Source: Rhodobacterales bacterium
GTDB lineage: Bacteria > Pseudomonadota > Alphaproteobacteria > Rhodobacterales > Rhodobacteraceae
Length of the DNA stretch: 64,000 bases
Direction of reading: 5' to 3'
NCBI GenBank assembly: GCA_002748265.1
Contig: PDRY01000013.1
Coordinates: forward strand, 310,001-374,000
A program made the position numbers and the translations under genes. Under the pieces are notes generated by a model. It saw only the letters and a program-made list of their open reading frames with translations, was not told where the DNA came from and did no database searches. Below are positions 45,699 to 52,776 of this stretch, one piece after another. Within the stretch, counting starts at the first letter, position 1; each line of letters starts with the position of its first letter.

Positions 45699-46955
45699 AT
45701 GCGCAGAGTTGTTGTCACGGGGCTGGGGCTGGTGACGCCGTTGGCCGATGGGGTGGACGCGAGCTGGAGCCGCATTCTGGACGGCGTTTCGGGCGCGGGT
45801 CCTATCACGCGTTTCGACACCGAGGGGCTGACCACCACCTATGCCTGCGAAGTGCCTCATGGCGAGGGCGAAGGCGAATTTGACGGGGCCAAATACATGG
45901 CGCCGAAGGATCAGCGCAAGGTCGATACCTTTATCCTTTACGGCATGGCAGCGGCTCAGCAGGCCGTTGAGGACGCGGGCTGGGCCATCGACGATGAGGA
46001 CGAGCTGCTGCGCACCGGCGTTCTGCTGGGCTCGGGCATCGGCGGGCTTCAATCCATCGCCGACACGGCTGTGATGATGGAAGAGAAGGGGCCGCGCCGG
46101 GTGTCTCCGTTCTTTGTGCCCGGAGCGCTGATCAACCTGATTTCTGGTCAGGTTGCGATCAAATACGGCTTCAAGGGACCGAACCACGCGGTTGTCACGG
46201 CCTGTTCCACCGGGGCTCACGCCATTGGCGACGCCGCGCGGATCATCAAATACGGCGATGCCGATGTGATGATCGCGGGCGGCGCGGAAGCGGCGATCTG
46301 CAAGATTGGCATCGCGGGTTTCAACGCCTGCAAGGCGCTGTCCACCGCGCGCACCGACGATCCCAAGACGGCGAGCCGTCCGTGGGACGCGGATCGCGAT
46401 GGGTTCGTGATGGGCGAGGGCGCCGGCGTCGTCGTTCTGGAGGAATACGAACACGCCAAGGCACGCGGGGCCAAGATCTACGCCGAAGTTCTGGGCTACG
46501 GCCTGTCGGGCGACGCCTATCACATCACCGCCCCGTCCGAGAACGGCGAGGGCGGCGAGCGCTCCATGCGGGCTGCGCTCAAGGATGCCGGGTTGGAGCC
46601 GACGGATATCGACTACATCAACGCCCATGGCACGAGCACCATGGCCGACACGATTGAGCTGGGCGCCGTGCAGCGGATGCTGGGCGATCACGCCAAGAAT
46701 GTCGCGATGTCCTCGACCAAATCCATGACCGGCCACCTTCTGGGCGCGGCCGGCGCGATTGAGGCGATCTTTGCCATCCTCGCGACCAAGCACAATGTGG
46801 CGCCGCCGACCATCAACCTGGACACGCCGCCGGAAGAGGCCGTTGTCGATCTTTGCGCGAATGAGAAACGCGAGAAGACCATCGACGTGGCACTGTCCAA
46901 CAGCTTTGGCTTTGGCGGCACCAATGCGAGCCTGATCGTCGGGAAACCGCGCTGA
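45699..46955 (+). CDS. fabF: Beta-ketoacyl-ACP synthase II
   Basis: Condenses malonyl-ACP with acyl-ACP. The 418-residue thiolase-fold enzyme has the nucleophile Cys169 in VVTACSTGAHAIGD, His residues in NAHGTSTMADTIELGA and KSMTGHLLGAAGAIEA, and the C-terminal NSFGFGGTNASLIVGK. The start has GGAGAGG upstream. Its TGA overlaps the mltG ATG by one base. Confidence 0.97.
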   Translation: MRRVVVTGLGLVTPLADGVDASWSRILDGVSGAGPITRFDTEGLTTTYACEVPHGEGEGEFDGAKYMAPKDQRKVDTFILYGMAAAQQAVEDAGWAIDDEDELLRTGVLLGSGIGGLQSIADTAVMMEEKGPRRVSPFFVPGALINLISGQVAIKYGFKGPNHAVVTACSTGAHAIGDAARIIKYGDADVMIAGGAEAAICKIGIAGFNACKALSTARTDDPKTASRPWDADRDGFVMGEGAGVVVLEEYEHAKARGAKIYAEVLGYGLSGDAYHITAPSENGEGGERSMRAALKDAGLEPTDIDYINAHGTSTMADTIELGAVQRMLGDHAKNVAMSSTKSMTGHLLGAAGAIEAIFAILATKHNVAPPTINLDTPPEEAVVDLCANEKREKTIDVALSNSFGFGGTNASLIVGKPR

Positions 46956-48121
46956 TGTGGAAAGCCATTGCCAGCACGGCACTGTCTTTGTTCGTGGTCG
47001 GGCTGTTCCTGCTGGCCGGGGTGATCTTGTGGGGCACGAGCCAGTGGCGCGACCCCGGACCGCTGAGTGAGGCGATCTGCCTTGAGGTGCCTGCGGGCAG
47101 CTCCATGCGGTCGGTCAGCGAAGACCTAGCCGCGCAAGGGGCCATTAGCCAGCCGACCATCTTCCGGGCCGGAGCAGATTACGCGGAGAAATCCGCGCTG
47201 CTCAAAGCGGGTTCGTTCCTGATCCAGCCGGGCTCCTCCATGGAGGAGATCGTGGACACGATCACGGGCACCGGCCAATCGACCTGCGGCACGGAGATCG
47301 TCTGGCGTGTTGGCGTCACCCGCCAGCAGGCGGAGATCCGCACGCTGGATCCGGCCACGGGGCGCTACGATGAGGTCGCCGAGTGGGACCCCGCCGCTGA
47401 CGCTCCGGCGGAGTATGCGCAGTATGTGGACAAGCCGGACACCCAGTTCCGCGTCGTGATTGCTGAGGGCGTCACGAGCTGGCAGGTGCGCGATGCGTTG
47501 CGCAGCATCGGCATCCTAGATGGCGATCCGGGCGAGGTGCCCGAAGAGGGCTCTCTGGCGCCGGACAGCTATGCGATCCAGCCCGGAGATTCGGGTGCCG
47601 CGCTGATCGCGAAGATGCAAGAGGCGCAGAGCGCGCGGCTGCAAACGGTCTGGGACGCGCGGTCGGACCGTACGGCGGTCGAGACGCTGGAAGACGCTCT
47701 GATTCTGGCCTCGATCATCGAGAAAGAGACCGGCGTTCCCGAGGAGCGGCGACAGGTCGCTGCCGTCTTCACCAACCGTCTGGAGCAGGGGATGCGGCTG
47801 CAGACCGACCCCACGGTGATCTACGGGATCACCAAGGGCGAGGGTGTGCTGGGCCGCGGCCTGCGCCGGTCCGAGCTGGATCGCGAGACGCCGTGGAACA
47901 CCTATGTTATCGCAGGGTTGCCGCCCACGCCGATCGCCAATCCGGGCCTGGAGAGCCTGCGCGCGGCGGTCGATCCGTCGGATGATGACTACGTGTTCTT
48001 TGTCGCCGACGGCACGGGCGGCCATGCCTTTGCCACGACGCTGGACGAGCACAACCGCAATGTCGCCCGCTGGCGCCAGATCGAAGCGGAGCGCGCCGCG
48101 CAGCAGGGCGGCGGCAACTGA
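46955..48121 (+). CDS. mltG: Endolytic peptidoglycan transglycosylase MltG (YceG-like)
   Basis: Cleaves nascent glycan strands at the inner membrane and so limits their length. The 388-residue protein has an N-terminal membrane anchor (TALSLFVVGLFLLAGVILWG) and the YceG domain with LILASIIEKETGVPEERRQV (catalytic Glu in the EKET motif, about residue 252), LQTDPTVIYGIT and TPWNTYVIAGLPPTPIANPG. It is translationally coupled to fabF (TGATG). The order fabF-mltG followed by GTA genes is conserved in this group as far as I recall. Confidence 0.95.
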   Translation: MWKAIASTALSLFVVGLFLLAGVILWGTSQWRDPGPLSEAICLEVPAGSSMRSVSEDLAAQGAISQPTIFRAGADYAEKSALLKAGSFLIQPGSSMEEIVDTITGTGQSTCGTEIVWRVGVTRQQAEIRTLDPATGRYDEVAEWDPAADAPAEYAQYVDKPDTQFRVVIAEGVTSWQVRDALRSIGILDGDPGEVPEEGSLAPDSYAIQPGDSGAALIAKMQEAQSARLQTVWDARSDRTAVETLEDALILASIIEKETGVPEERRQVAAVFTNRLEQGMRLQTDPTVIYGITKGEGVLGRGLRRSELDRETPWNTYVIAGLPPTPIANPGLESLRAAVDPSDDDYVFFVADGTGGHAFATTLDEHNRNVARWRQIEAERAAQQGGGN

Positions 48122-48194: not shown

Positions 48195-48223
48195 TTGACA
48201 GACCGCCCGATGCCGGGCATGAT
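48195..48223 (+). promoter_or_regulatory. Possible promoter of a short leader before the GTA genes
   Basis: A perfect TTGACA (from 48195), 17-base spacer and CATGAT as -10. A short open frame, ATGCCGGGCATGATTTCAGA and on to a TGA at 48246-48248, encodes a 12-residue peptide, and a terminator follows at 48251. Together they look like a leader or a small RNA gene. Confidence 0.35.
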
Positions 48224-48349: not shown

Positions 48350-48694
48350 ATGACCCAACCTATCGAGACGCGCGATGCGCAAGAGCAGACCGAGCTGGAG
48401 CAAGCCCGGCTGCTGTTCACCCACATCAGCAGCACGCTGCATGCAGTGCTGCAGGAGGTCCGTAGCGGGGATCTGACCCATCTGGATCAGCTGACGAAGA
48501 AGCAGTTGCAACTGGAAGAGGTCGCCAACCGGGCCGCGAAACTGAAGGAGCAGTTCGATGCGAAACACGACACGGGACTTCGAGACGGAGAGTTCGACCT
48601 TGACCGGGCTCGGTTTGAAATCGGGTGCAAGCTGGCTCGCCTCCGGGCCTGCTGCGATGCAGGACGACTTTCTTGCGAGCTTGAGCGAGAGTGA
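48350..48694 (+). CDS. GTA gp1-like protein (probable small terminase)
   Basis: A 114-residue mostly helical, charged protein (QEQTELEQARLLFTHISSTL; DQLTKKQLQLEEVANRAAKL). Its place directly upstream of and overlapping the GTA terminase gene corresponds to gene g1 of the Rhodobacter capsulatus gene transfer agent, which has been described as the small terminase. Sequence similarity is judged from memory. It starts at 48350 (MTQPIETRD). It is part of a decayed GTA cluster. Confidence 0.65.
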   Translation: MTQPIETRDAQEQTELEQARLLFTHISSTLHAVLQEVRSGDLTHLDQLTKKQLQLEEVANRAAKLKEQFDAKHDTGLRDGEFDLDRARFEIGCKLARLRACCDAGRLSCELERE

Positions 48695-49958
48695 GCTGCG
48701 GGCGCTGCCCTGGCTGTTCGATTTCTGGGCGGGGGAGCATCAGCTCCCCCCTCCGGGCGATTGGCGCTCCTGGGTGATCCTGGGCGGGCGCGGCGCGGGC
48801 AAGACGCGCGCCGGGGCCGAATGGGTGCGCGCCATGGTCGAGGGCGCGGGGCCCCGTGACCGGGGGCGCGCAGCGCGGGTGGCCTTGGTCGGCGAGACGC
48901 TGGACCAGGCGCGCGAAGTCATGGTGTTCGGGGAAAGCGGGCTCTTGGCCTGCGCCCCGCCGGATCGGAGACCCGAATGGCTGGCCGGGCGCAAGCAGTT
49001 GATCTGGCCCAATGGCGCGGTGGCGCAGATTTTGTCGGCTCATGACCCGGAGGGGCTGCGGGGCTACCAGTTTGACGCGCTCTGGGCCGATGAGCTGGCC
49101 AAGTGGAAGCGCGCGCAAGAGAGCTGGGACATGCTGCAATTCGCCTTGCGGCTGGGGGACGACCCGCGCGCCTGTATCACCACCACGCCGCGCAATGTCG
49201 CGGTGCTGCGCGATTTGCTGAACCGCGAGAGCACGGTGTCCACCCACGCCCCGACCGAGGCGAACCGTGCCTGGTTGGCGGATGGGTTCCTCGAAGAGGT
49301 TAAGGCCCGTTACGCTGGCACGCGTCTAGGCCGTCAGGAGCTGGAGGGCGAGCTGCTGGGCGATGCCGAGGGCGCTTTGTGGTCGAGCGATGCGCTGTCC
49401 GCAGGGCATCTGCGCGCGACGCCCGATCTGGCACGGGTCGTGGTCGCGGTGGACCCGCCGGTGAGCGGGCATGCGAAATCCGATGAATGCGGGATCATCG
49501 TGGCCGGTGTCACAATGGATGGCGATCCGGGCCAGTGGCGGGGCTATGTGCTGGAGGATGCCAGCGTAACGGGCGCGTCGCCACTGGAATGGGCCCGCGC
49601 GGCCGTAGCTGCGGCAGAGCGCCACGGCGCCGACCGGGTGGTGGCCGAGGTCAATCAGGGCGGCGATCTGGTGGAGCAGGTGATCCGTCAGGTCGCGCCG
49701 CTTCTTCCATACCGAGCGGTACGGGCATCGCGAGGGAAGGCCGCGCGGGCGGAACCCGTCGCCGCGCTTTATGAGCAGGGCCGGGTGCGGCATCTGCGCG
49801 GGCTGGACACGCTGGAGGAGCAGATGTGCCAGATGACGCTTCACGGCTACGAGGGGCAGGGCAGTCCCGACCGGGTCGATGCTCTGGTCTGGGCGATCCA
49901 TGAGCTGATGCTGGTCCCCGCAGCAAACTGGCAAGCGCCGCGCGTGCGGCATTTGTGA
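48558..49958 (+). CDS. GTA terminase large subunit (gp2)
   Basis: DNA-packaging ATPase and nuclease. The 466-residue protein has Walker A GGRGAGKTRAGAEW (about residue 76), Walker B FDALWADELAKW, the motif III segment ACITTTPRNVAVL, and an RNase H-like nuclease domain beginning VVVAVDPPVSG with acidic residues in KSDECGIIV and QGSPDRVDALVWAIHEL. The start at 48558 is chosen for its AAGGAG and because the KSGASWLAS segment resembles the start of other GTA terminases; it overlaps gp1 by 137 bases. The gene itself looks intact although the structural genes it should serve are gone. Confidence 0.9.
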   Translation: MRNTTRDFETESSTLTGLGLKSGASWLASGPAAMQDDFLASLSESELRALPWLFDFWAGEHQLPPPGDWRSWVILGGRGAGKTRAGAEWVRAMVEGAGPRDRGRAARVALVGETLDQAREVMVFGESGLLACAPPDRRPEWLAGRKQLIWPNGAVAQILSAHDPEGLRGYQFDALWADELAKWKRAQESWDMLQFALRLGDDPRACITTTPRNVAVLRDLLNRESTVSTHAPTEANRAWLADGFLEEVKARYAGTRLGRQELEGELLGDAEGALWSSDALSAGHLRATPDLARVVVAVDPPVSGHAKSDECGIIVAGVTMDGDPGQWRGYVLEDASVTGASPLEWARAAVAAAERHGADRVVAEVNQGGDLVEQVIRQVAPLLPYRAVRASRGKAARAEPVAALYEQGRVRHLRGLDTLEEQMCQMTLHGYEGQGSPDRVDALVWAIHELMLVPAANWQAPRVRHL

Positions 49959-50009
49959 CGCGAGATCAAGGCGCTTGCCTTCCGCGCGGTCGGAGGCTTT
50001 CCTGGCGCT

Positions 50010-50225
50010 ATGGCGAAGCTGGTTCTGACCCACAAAGCCGGTTCGATCTATGAGGATGAGCCGGATGCTGTTGAAGATTGGGCCGGGCACGATGAGGTCG
50101 TGCCGGGCCGTGAAGTGACCTCGCGGTGGTGCAGATCGCCGGGGTGATACCAAAGCCCGAGGTGGAGGGGCGCGATCAGGCGTTGATCGTACTGGGCACA
50201 AATTTGCCTTTTGCTCAGACCTTTA
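50010..50225 (+). pseudogene. HNH-endonuclease-like gene fragment
   Basis: A frame from ATG 50010 reads MAKLVLTHKAGSIYEDEPD, which resembles the start of a family of alphaproteobacterial HNH-type endonucleases. It then loses the family pattern and stops at 50147. Another frame from about 50117 reads LAVVQIAGVIPKPEVEGRDQ then ALIVLGTNLPFAQTF, resembling the next conserved block of the same family. An internal deletion, a frameshift and loss of the catalytic C-terminal part are inferred. The assignment is from pattern memory. Confidence 0.45.
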
Positions 50226-50266
50226 GGACGTCTTCAGAAAACTTCGATCACAGTGATGCGTCAGGA

Positions 50267-50503
50267 TCAGGCTGACGGCCAGCTAGCGTCTTTCTGGAGG
50301 GCGCGCGATTGCGCCCGGTCGAGCGCGGCGCGCGCCTGAGCAGGGTTCGGGCCGTGCCGTGTCCAGATGCGCAGGGCGGCGGTGGTGCTGAACGGAAGGG
50401 CGGCGTCGCGGAGCCAGGCGCGCAGATCGGGTGGGAGCGCGTCGAAGCGGTTCATGGATCGGGCGCGGCGGCGCGGGAGGGTGGTGCGGAGGTTGCGGGG
50501 CAT
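50267..50503 (-). CDS. DUF6525-like small protein
   Basis: A 78-residue basic protein, MPRNLRTTLPRRRARSMNRF followed by DALPPDLRAWLRDAALPFST and a helical C-terminus with ALDRAQSRALQKDA. This resembles DUF6525, a small family of Rhodobacteraceae with no known function. It lies inside the collapsed GTA cluster, in the opposite direction to the phage-like genes, after the HNH fragment. Confidence 0.6.
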   Translation of the reverse strand: MPRNLRTTLPRRRARSMNRFDALPPDLRAWLRDAALPFSTTAALRIWTRHGPNPAQARAALDRAQSRALQKDASWPSA

Positions 50504-50660
50504 GCTGATTGGATAGGTTATGAGATAACATATCGGTATCCGTTGCGCGGCCCCGTGGCAACCGCACGGATGGTTACTGCGGCATTAACCTCTGTCCCTC
50601 AGATTGCTTCTCAACGACGCGGTGCCCTCTGGCGCTGCAAACGCAATCAAGGAGCGGCCG

Positions 50661-50983
50661 ATGTTCGAGTTTCTGAAACGTCCCGTGGAGACGGTCGAGG
50701 TCACGTCCCTCGACAGCGCGAGCTGCTGGGCGGCGCGGGCGTGAAAACCGCTGCGGTGTCGGGGCAGGGCGTCTTTCGCGACGAGGCGAGCGATGAGCGC
50801 GTCCGGCAGGTGTTCTTTGACGGCGAGACGCCGCGCTTTCAGGTCATCATCCCCGATTTCGGCATCATCGAGGGCCCGTTCCAGGTGACCGCTTTGGAAT
50901 ATGCCGGGGCTGTGGCGGGGGAGGCGACCTTTGAGATGTCGCTCGCCTCAGCCGGGGAGATCGGCTTCACGGCGGCTCTGTAA
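50661..50983 (+). pseudogene. GTA deletion scar: portal (gp3) start joined to major tail protein (gp9) end
   Basis: ATG 50661 after GGAG encodes MFEFLKRP, the typical start of a GTA portal protein, then continues VETVEVTSLDSA, which fits the middle of a GTA major tail protein. It stops after about 27 codons. From 50717, in another frame, the tail protein continues RELLGGAGVKTAAVSGQGVF, RDEASDERVRQVFFDGETPR, FQVIIPDFGIIEGPFQVTAL and ends EMSLASAGEIGFTAAL at 50983. About 6 kb of head and tail genes (rest of gp3 to front of gp9) are therefore missing, with a second small deletion at about 50715. Confidence 0.78.
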
Positions 50984-51294
50984 TGGCCAATCCGCTGGCA
51001 GGAGAGGTCGATGTGACCGTGGACGGGCGCGTTTTCTGCGCCCGGCTCACCCTGGGCGCTCTGGCCGAGCTGGAAGAGGAGCTGGGCGAAGACAGCCTCG
51101 TCGCTCTGGCGGCGCGGTTCGAAGAGGGCCGGTTTTCGTCGCGCGATGTGCTGGCGGTGCTGGTTGCCGGGCTGCGCGGCGGCGGCTGGGAGGGTCGGGC
51201 GCCTGACCTTTTGAACGCCCGGATTGAGGGCGGCCCGCTCGGCGCTGCACGGATGGCGGCGCAGCTTCTGGCCCGCGCCTTCGCCGCGCCATGA
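50983..51294 (+). CDS. GTA gp10 (tail assembly chaperone-like)
   Basis: A 103-residue protein, starting MANPLAGEVDVTVDGRVFCA with RLTLGALAELEEELGEDSLV and the C-terminal GPLGAARMAAQLLARAFA. It matches the gene transfer agent family protein (gp10) that normally follows the major tail gene; that order is kept here even though gp9 is truncated. The ATG overlaps the gp9 stop by one base. The frame is intact. Confidence 0.82.
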   Translation: MANPLAGEVDVTVDGRVFCARLTLGALAELEEELGEDSLVALAARFEEGRFSSRDVLAVLVAGLRGGGWEGRAPDLLNARIEGGPLGAARMAAQLLARAFAAP

Positions 51295-51518
51295 GCGAGG
51301 ACCGGCGCGGCGGCATCGCCTGGGGCGCCTTGATGCGCGCGGCCATCCGCGAGCGGGGGCTGCTGCCCGCGCAGTTCTGGGCGCTCACCCCGGCTGAGCT
51401 GATGCTGCTGCTGGGGCGCGATGGTGGCGGCGTGCAGCCCATGGCGCGGGCGCGGCTGGAGGAACTGGCTGCCGCCTGGCCGGACAAAGGATCGGAGGAT
51501 GACCATGGACGAGATTGA
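51291..51518 (+). CDS. GTA gp10.1-like protein (rcc01693 family)
   Basis: A 75-residue protein, with IAWGALMRAAIRERGLLPAQ and FWALTPAELMLLLGR, matching the small phage tail assembly chaperone-like protein that lies between gp10 and the tape-measure gene in Rhodobacterales GTAs. It overlaps gp10 by 4 bases (ATGA) and the tape-measure gene by 14. Confidence 0.8.
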   Translation: MSEDRRGGIAWGALMRAAIRERGLLPAQFWALTPAELMLLLGRDGGGVQPMARARLEELAAAWPDKGSEDDHGRD

Positions 51519-51870
51519 CAAGCTAGAGGCGGAGACCGGCGATCTGGGCCGCGCGGCGGCAGAGAGCGCCGAGATGGCCCGCGTGTTCAGCGCCGAGCTG
51601 CGTACTGTGCGCAGCGCAACAGATGAGACCGCGCGGTCCCTCAGCGGGTTGGAGCGCGGTTTTTCCGGCGGCGTACGCAAGGCCATCGACAGCGTGGTGC
51701 TGGATGGCGGGCGGCTTTCCGATGCGCTTGGCATCCTGGCGCAGTCCATTTCGCGCACTGCCTACAACGCCGCGATGAAGCCCGTGTCGGACCATTTCGG
51801 CGGTCTTCTGGCCAATGGTGTGAACGCCATGATGGGCGAGGTCCTGCCCTTTGCCAATGGCGCCCTCTGT
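51505..51870 (+). pseudogene. GTA tail tape-measure protein (gp11), N-terminal fragment fused to cysE leader
   Basis: ATG 51505 after GGAGG encodes MDEIDKLEAETGDLGRAAAE, then RSLSGLERGFSGGVRKAIDS, VVLDGGRLSDALGILAQSIS, and AMKPVSDHFGGLLANGVNAM with LPFANG, the usual N-terminal half of GTA gp11. After FANGA the tape-measure pattern ends abruptly and the frame continues through what should be the upstream region of cysE, without a stop, into CysE itself. The C-terminal part and all of gp12-gp15 are absent. Confidence 0.78.
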
Positions 51871-51972
51871 CATCCGGCGGGAAACGCTCACATTCGCTTG
51901 TCCGGGGGTTTTCCCTCGCCGCCCGGACGCCTAGGGTCCGGCGCAGTCTGGATGCAACCCGAGAGCGACCCT

Positions 51973-52776
51973 ATGGCCAACCCTAAGATCGAGCCCGATG
52001 CGCTGTGGACGCGGATTCGCGAAGAAGCCGCGAGCGCGATTGCGGCAGAACCGCTGATCGGGGGCGTGCTGCACGCCTGCATCCTGCACCATGACACGCT
52101 TGATTGCGCCCTGGCTTACCGGCTGGCCACAAAGCTTGCTTCGGCCGATATGAGCGAGCAGATCCTGCGCGAGATCGCGGATGAAGCCTACGCCGCCGAT
52201 CCGGCCCTGATCCACGCTGCCCGCGCGGATTTGATGGCCATCCTGGAGCGCGATCCGGCCTGCCACCGGCTCATGCAGCCGCTGATGTATTTCAAGGGAT
52301 TCCAGGCCGTGCAGGCCCACCGCCTGTCCCATGCGCTCTGGACCCAGGGACGGAGCGATCTGGCCTACTATCTTCAGATGCGCAGCTCTGAGCTTTACGG
52401 CGTCGATATCCATCCCGGCGCGACGATCGGTCAGGGGCTGATGATCGACCACGCCCATTCCATCGTGATCGGAGAGACGGCCGTGGTCGGGGATAATGTC
52501 TCGATGCTCCATGCCGTGACGCTGGGCGGCACCGGTAAAGAGGACGAGGACCGGCACCCCAAGATCGAAGATGGCGTTCTGATCGGCGCCGGGGCCAAAG
52601 TGCTGGGCAATATCCGCGTGGGCTGCTGCTCGCGTATTGCGGCCGGGTCCGTCGTGCTGGCGGATGTCCCGGCCCACTCGACGGTTGCGGGCGTGCCGGC
52701 CAAGGTCGTTGGCGAAGCGGGTTGCCCGGAACCGGCGGCCAGCATGAACCAGCTTCTGGCGGATCTGCCGCGATGA
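51973..52776 (+). CDS. cysE: Serine O-acetyltransferase
   Basis: Acetylates serine with acetyl-CoA in the first step of cysteine synthesis. The 267-residue protein has the N-terminal helical domain (DALWTRIREEAASAIAAEPL) and the left-handed beta-helix with hexapeptide repeats: DIHPGATIGQGLMIDHAHSI, VIGETAVVGDNVSMLHAVTL and VLIGAGAKVLGNIRVG, with the catalytic His/Asp in IDHAH and the LHAVTLGG motif. The start at 51973 (MANPKIEPDAL) is chosen for homology; an ATG at 51952 is in frame. cysE next to GTA genes is a known arrangement in this order as I recall. It overlaps the next gene by 4 bases. Confidence 0.94.
   Translation: MANPKIEPDALWTRIREEAASAIAAEPLIGGVLHACILHHDTLDCALAYRLATKLASADMSEQILREIADEAYAADPALIHAARADLMAILERDPACHRLMQPLMYFKGFQAVQAHRLSHALWTQGRSDLAYYLQMRSSELYGVDIHPGATIGQGLMIDHAHSIVIGETAVVGDNVSMLHAVTLGGTGKEDEDRHPKIEDGVLIGAGAKVLGNIRVGCCSRIAAGSVVLADVPAHSTVAGVPAKVVGEAGCPEPAASMNQLLADLPR

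Follow-up and report, generated by a model that had tools for sequence, protein, structure and literature searches.

Gene content of the locus

The window analysed here was a stretch of 64,000 nucleotides (nt) from a Rhodobacterales bacterium (assembly GCA_002748265.1, contig PDRY01000013.1, positions 310,001 to 374,000). It contained a locus with genes of the type found in RcGTA, the gene transfer agent (GTA) of Rhodobacter capsulatus. The order on the + strand was mltG, gp1, terL, a non-GTA segment of 0.7 kb, the start of the portal gene, a relic of the major tail protein (MTP) gene, gp10, gp10.1, half of gp11, and cysE. The genes g1 and g2 stood at the head of the cluster beside mltG (yceG), cysE lay directly downstream, and recognisable GTA genes with deletions and frame breaks occupied the ancestral site.

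The terL gene (gp2; 48558..49958, +) encoded 466 residues in an open frame and was complete, with matches to both Terminase_6N (4.1e-28) and Terminase_6C (4.4e-21) in Pfam (PF03237 and PF17289); its private changes were not in excess. The gene upstream, gp1 (48350..48694, +), encoded the GTA small terminase of 114 residues, was open, and gave weak but syntenic tblastn matches. Downstream of the tail relic, gp10 (50983..51294, +; 103 residues; PF11836, 1.5e-28) and the tail assembly chaperone gene gp10.1 (51291..51518, +; 75 residues; PF09550, 1.1e-18) were also open. The tape measure gene gp11 retained its front half (51505..51870, +), which matched only positions 5-123 of 220 of NF058675 (3.3e-37), under the full-length cut-off of the family. 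Open reading frames (ORFs), Pfam and NF058675 thus bore out the original prediction, made from the letters of the same DNA, of a collapsed GTA locus with gp1, full-length terL, gp10, gp10.1 and the front of gp11.

In intact relatives, the portal, protease, capsid, gp6-gp8 and MTP genes were located between terL and gp10. In the window, the first codons of the portal gene gp3 (MFEFLKRP; 50661..50684, +) passed directly into MTP sequence (VETVEVTSLDSA) of a kind seen in relatives, the joint that had been predicted. The MTP (gp9) relic (50685..50983, +) was broken in frame near 50715 by a loss of about 13 nt when compared by eye with relatives, which agreed with the predicted frame break. The frame that begins at the portal start is now 26 residues long and the remaining MTP sits in another frame, which resumes past 50715 and matched positions 57-130 of 132 of PF06199 (2.1e-22).

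A second junction, at about 51870, marked the loss of gp12-gp15 and of the remainder of gp11. No stop codon was present between gp11 and cysE, so that one ORF of 451 residues (51421..52776, +) ran through the gp11 front half, a linker and CysE; the second deletion thus fuses gp11 to cysE in frame. A block in the linker and upstream region of cysE (GGGTTT.., CCTA..) was seen by eye 5' of cysE in relatives as well, so the second deletion seems to end at the cysE promoter. The claim that everything between the portal start and the middle of the MTP gene had been lost was right, but the locus has at least two deletions, not one. The gp11 and cysE junction and the 0.7 kb segment did not figure in the original prediction.

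That segment (49959..50660), between terL and the portal start, gave no significant match across its length in blastn against relatives. It carried a DUF6525 gene of 78 residues on the - strand (50267..50503; PF20135, 9.2e-18). Two short open pieces ahead of this gene matched no Pfam family; they may resemble an endonuclease-like protein. The left flank, mltG (46955..48121, +), and the right flank, cysE (51973..52776, +; SATase_N PF06426, 1.1e-38), are the flanks of GTA clusters in Rhodobacteraceae and had the same neighbours in relatives. A sigma-70-like promoter match, by consensus only, was found 5' of gp1 (48195..48223, +).

The source assembly comprised 2.785 Mb in 56 contigs, was 88.36% complete, and was the sole genome of its genus compared. 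One terL was present genome-wide. Searches of this 88.36%-complete assembly for capsid and portal genes, as the original prediction had proposed, and for gp13 and the C-terminal part of gp15 gave no match. The protease gene was absent from the locus, to which its search was confined; gp12-gp14 were also absent from the locus, the MTP gene was broken, and gp11 was halved. Since no gene for portal, capsid, adaptor, hub or baseplate was found in the assembly, the cell can probably make no GTA particle from this locus, in agreement with the prediction, and the locus by itself would not produce particles.

Drift of the tail relic and of terL

The MTP relic has lost its in-frame start and was therefore used as an internal clock. 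The comparison of the window with 80 other taxa took codon positions 1 and 2 of those columns that were conserved in 93% or more of the taxa. The relic had 6 private changes in 95 columns (mean of the others 0.93; rank 1 of 81), whereas terL had 4 in 480 (mean of the others 5.4; rank 41 of 81), a difference with a Fisher p of 0.0021. Mean protein distance to the 80 relatives was 1.51x that of the others for the relic (rank 4 of 81) and 1.10x for terL (rank 25). In a simpler count of near-invariant residues, the relic deviated at about 1/26 and terL at 0/139.

Private changes were 3/90 in gp10 (rank 9 of 81), 2/43 in gp10.1 (rank 2 of 63) and 5/63 in gp11N, the front of gp11 (rank 3 of 76); pooled, these three gave 10/196 against 4/480 in terL (p 0.001). 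Since the unrelated neighbour mltG was raised as well (10/328, rank 6 of 81), nothing follows for gp10, gp10.1 and gp11N. The count for cysE was 4/331 (rank 4 of 23). With mltG marking the lineage as long, the relic was the only upward outlier and terL the only downward one.

At near-invariant positions, CysE of the window (51973-52776) was the most deviant (rank 1 of 70), with five residues that differed where 77 relatives were invariant or nearly so. The selection on cysE1 may have changed after GTA loss.

Loss of GTA clusters in Rhodobacteraceae

One genome per genus was surveyed for 198 Rhodobacteraceae genera with capsid, terL, gp13 and a TerL::gp15 chimera (described below) as queries. 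A capsid match at E<=1e-3 was found in 156/198 genomes. Five of the matches were partial or weak (G036, G094, G116, G168 and G217; E 3e-28 to 1e-65); a GTA-type capsid was counted in 151/198 genomes and none in 47. Among these 47, at least two (G021 and G028) were contig ends, and 15 had no match at all to the TerL::gp15 query. Four genomes (G132, G219, G171 and G183) had a capsid match and no terL; each time, the contig ended before or inside terL.

Besides the window, 22 remnant loci were read: G003, G013, G018, G030, G036, G069, G100, G135, G139, G147, G217, G220 and ten chimeras. In 18/22 the deletion reached into gp15 on its right side; the exceptions were G013 and G217, where its right end lay in the MTP gene as in the window, G030, where it lay inside terL, and G036, in which no gp15 was found. 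Left ends ranged from about residue 65 of terL to residue 110 of the capsid. In G095 the head genes were retained, and gp13, gp14 and the greater part of gp15 were missing. Across the family, GTA losses were frequent, mostly took the form of one internal deletion, and were placed close to the tree tips.

Part of terL remained in all 22 survey remnants. Among the 12 non-chimeric ones, terL was whole and open in two (G036 and G220) and showed truncation, stops or frame breaks in ten. Eight of 80 named-genome terL loci were truncated (L049, L056, L057, L067, L074, L087, L099 and L108; L099 is the same genome as G139), and terL was open to its normal end in 7/8 of these, a set that had been found with a full-length terL query. 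Because terL is outermost, it often leaves a trace, the remnants being what is left between two host genes. The idea that the terminase had been specially kept at the window locus was therefore weakened, and its special retention throughout the family was not supported as a rule.

Some other rearrangements were observed. G187, the nearest genome by terL, had an otherwise full cluster with an insert between terL and portal (L112:4469-6760) that comprised an aldehyde-dehydrogenase-like gene and a GntR-like regulator, both named by eye. In G147 (L116:520-1671), mltG was inverted beside the GTA remnant.

A recurrent TerL::gp15 chimera

Ten of the 198 genera had an interval made up of gp1 and one long frame in which TerL residues 1 to about 180 were joined to the C-terminal ~650 residues of gp15. 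The domains of this chimera were Terminase_6N (2-105), GTA_TIM (204-299), Phage-tail_3 and Rcc01698_C. Chimeras were also found in ten species of genus g68 (54 species) and four of genus g129 (19 species); allowing for overlap, chimera genomes numbered 22 (e.g., L143:4886-7393, L140-L145, L173-L176, L209-L217 and L238-L241). The genus of G116 had one genome only. The frame was broken in G079 and G259, ran off the contig in G163, and was part of a longer upstream frame in G250; the other 18 were open over their length. Several chimeras had kept gp1 upstream.

The junction codon was identical in 22/22: TerL ..W-x-D, a shared E, and gp15 x-G-C. The TerL part carried complete Walker A and Walker B motifs (..AAWxDE), with D and E of Walker B coming from TerL in 22/22, and the gp15 side read xGC..DKG.NQPN... 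No other in-register TerL/gp15 crossover was found among the loci compared. Joining at the Trp codon, three residues before the shared Glu, would also have kept the frame, with 3-4 nt shared in many genomes, and was used by 0/22.

The junction was sought outside these genomes. A degenerate junction pattern had 0 matches in viral contigs, and the junction was present in 0/80 viral loci, which were short and made a weak test, and in 0/80 named-genome loci, likewise a weak test as these were the best 80 by a full-length terL query. The terL part was joined in no record among those listed of 16 plasmid records; apart from H6, which started at residue 156, and H12-H15, which matched the terL part alone, the best plasmid matches started no earlier than residue 175.

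Several origins are indicated by the trees. In the gp15C tree of 54 loci, the chimera label required 8 changes, at least 4 of them forced by starred branches; the mltG+cysE tree required 8 (at least 5 forced). Within g68, 7 changes were required, all forced, and within g129 4 (at least 3 forced). A single origin was rejected by the approximately unbiased test on gp15C (10 rows vs 44, p 2.1e-4) and on mltG+cysE (8 vs 39, p 2e-7), and also by the trees within the two genera.

The closest comparison was between the chimera genome G286 and the intact G285, with 97.3% identity over 4.6 kb on the left and 98.3% over 3.4 kb on the right. About 11 kb was missing from G286 in one step, with 2 nt shared at the joint. 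Spread of the junction by transfer was rejected: G286 matched G285 up to less than ~20 nt left and less than 60 nt right of the junction, bounding any foreign tract, and a sliding window showed no rise in divergence towards the junction. A microhomology hotspot was also set aside, as up to 7 nt were shared in g68 and only 2 nt in G286, a comparison made by count and not by formal test. No conserved DNA site was seen at the junction; synonymous positions and codons at both sites varied among intact genomes.

Relaxed selection on the chimeras was not detected: nonsynonymous and synonymous changes were 268:1054 against 198:904 in intact lineages (Fisher p 0.16; pooled, with triplets sharing taxa), and pairwise ratios of nonsynonymous to synonymous rates (dN/dS) overlapped those of intact lineages. 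Such undiffering dN/dS fits constraint and recent origin (young by-products) alike, which counts against selection for the product, as does the occurrence of the chimera only within the survey genome collection.

A collapse convergent to the codon, either by repeated selection for a chimera of TerL ATPase and baseplate protein or by site-specific deletion of a new type, is possible, and the odds are put at about one in three. Under repeated selection, the chimera would be kept with gp1, g16 and cysE once particle production had been abandoned. Selection for the ATPase core plus the gp15 end would give the retention of D and E, with the shared Glu codon as minimal microhomology. Under either process, GTA loss would not be random erosion and would have a preferred product. 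A hotspot, selection on the product or a data artefact may lie behind the shared junction, and the chimera is regarded as a strong lead and not as proven biology.

Two further observations concern this region of TerL. Contigs of the draft genomes G032 (C54, L195:1-30) and G182 (C14, L193 end) began exactly at the shared Glu codon, which would follow from coexisting intact and deleted forms branching the assembly graph or from a cut in the data. Deletions in G217 and G030 (L131:7326-7989 and L136:4484-5047, reverse orientation) also started at TerL Walker B (GPQFDAA..) and were joined to the MTP gene and to TerL's own nuclease part, respectively.

Interpretation of the window locus

The window locus is best read as a decayed RcGTA-type cluster between mltG and cysE that underwent at least two deletions, makes no particles, and has terL most likely under constraint (probability about 85%). 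As read from the junctions, one deletion took out the stretch from portal codon 9 to roughly mid-MTP, another took out that from gp11 codon ~122 to a point shortly before cysE, and a separate small loss broke the MTP frame. After the collapse the untranslated MTP relic drifted and terL did not; from this contrast, a statistical argument from one genome, terL, perhaps with gp1, most likely stayed under constraint. Constraint on terL after the collapse, as judged from one genome and a short relic, is only slightly favoured. The simplest role for terL without a capsid would be that TerS and TerL, expressed from the former GTA promoter, bind or cut DNA as a pair.

Several points weigh against this interpretation. 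The assembly is 88% complete and came without reads, and missing genes could sit in gaps (the missing 12%). The nearest terL to that of this sole genome of its genus is 73% identical, and some changes in the relic may predate the collapse. The MTP relic has only 80 codons, and mltG and cysE of the window lineage were raised too. The damage to terL in 10/12 other non-chimeric survey remnants also implies that a terL left on its own is not constrained as a rule.

The strongest alternative is a young neutral relic, in which the collapse is too recent for terL to have decayed and nothing is selected. The open frames of terL, gp10 and gp10.1 would be expected of it, and the breakdown of terL at other collapsed loci of the family and the placement of GTA losses near the tree tips agree with it; however, the MTP relic already has 6/95 private changes against 4/480 in terL. 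This is a serious alternative, rated a little short of an even chance. The original prediction had taken the undamaged frames to mean that the collapse was recent or that the genes were still used, and these two can now be partly separated: for terL constraint is favoured, and for gp10 and gp10.1 nothing can be said.

An assembly artefact, in which the missing genes are present in the organism and were collapsed or mis-joined, is very improbable: the draft has 56 contigs and no reads, and short microhomologies occur at any junction, but the locus has two separate junctions, a small break in the MTP frame and 0.7 kb of additional sequence that includes a DUF6525 gene, the rest of the assembly gave no match to portal, capsid, gp13 or gp15, and like losses occur in genomes of one or two contigs (G013, G147 and G069). 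A defective prophage of another kind has the least credit, for although GTA and phage genes are homologous, the mltG and cysE flanks, the gene order and the closest matches are those of intact GTA clusters, and terL is 62-73% identical to the best-listed relatives.

As a decayed cluster, the window would be one case of a frequent loss of GTAs in Rhodobacteraceae, which in the loci read took place mostly by large internal deletions. That the deletions are bounded by two flanking host genes would account for the pattern.

Comparison with known systems

The persistence of costly GTAs and the manner of their loss have yet to be explained. The main value of the window lies in the entry it gives to a recurrent pattern of collapse in the family. 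It also provides a clean non-producer whose terminase seems constrained, so that the role of TerL without a capsid becomes testable. If the chimera is selected, it would be a new domesticated protein that arose repeatedly through an identical mutation; if it reflects a mutational or population process, it would be a marker for the rate at which GTA-minus cells appear and for their persistence. No TerL::gp15 chimera and no map of GTA deletion endpoints was found in the literature searched, supplements aside.

Among published systems, the accessible text of PMC6209664 states that intact GTA clusters exceed the length fitting the particles that they encode, and that of PMC6854486 that RcGTA gp1 binds the ATPase domain of TerL in a two-hybrid assay. 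The RcGTA cluster of R. capsulatus (g1-g15, g16 and cysE1), in the layout given in PMC9552610, has the same position between mltG/yceG and cysE, the same gene order, and the same gp1, terL, gp10, gp10.1 and gp11 families as the window. In contrast to RcGTA, the window is without portal, protease, capsid, gp6-gp8, most of the MTP gene, half of gp11, and gp12-gp15.

Other Alphaproteobacteria have GTA clusters that were pseudogenised or lost (PMC10883770), with the same loss of GTA production by cluster decay. Incomplete regions were excluded from the analysis in that study, the accessible text of which describes no junctions, whereas the present analysis describes the structure of the window locus and of 22 other remnants. 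The window carries a genuine decayed GTA cluster of this known kind; its unusual feature is that terL seems constrained and the relic next to it drifts.

The fusion to cysE also has a counterpart. According to the accessible part of PMC9552610, g16 and cysE1 lie downstream of RcGTA, cysE1 acts in the receipt of GTA DNA, and g16-cysE1 fusions occur, which are likewise in-frame fusions of a gene on the GTA side to cysE. Unlike in those fusions, the partner in the window is the front half of gp11, which a deletion placed there, and cysE has retained both its own start and the block 5' of it.

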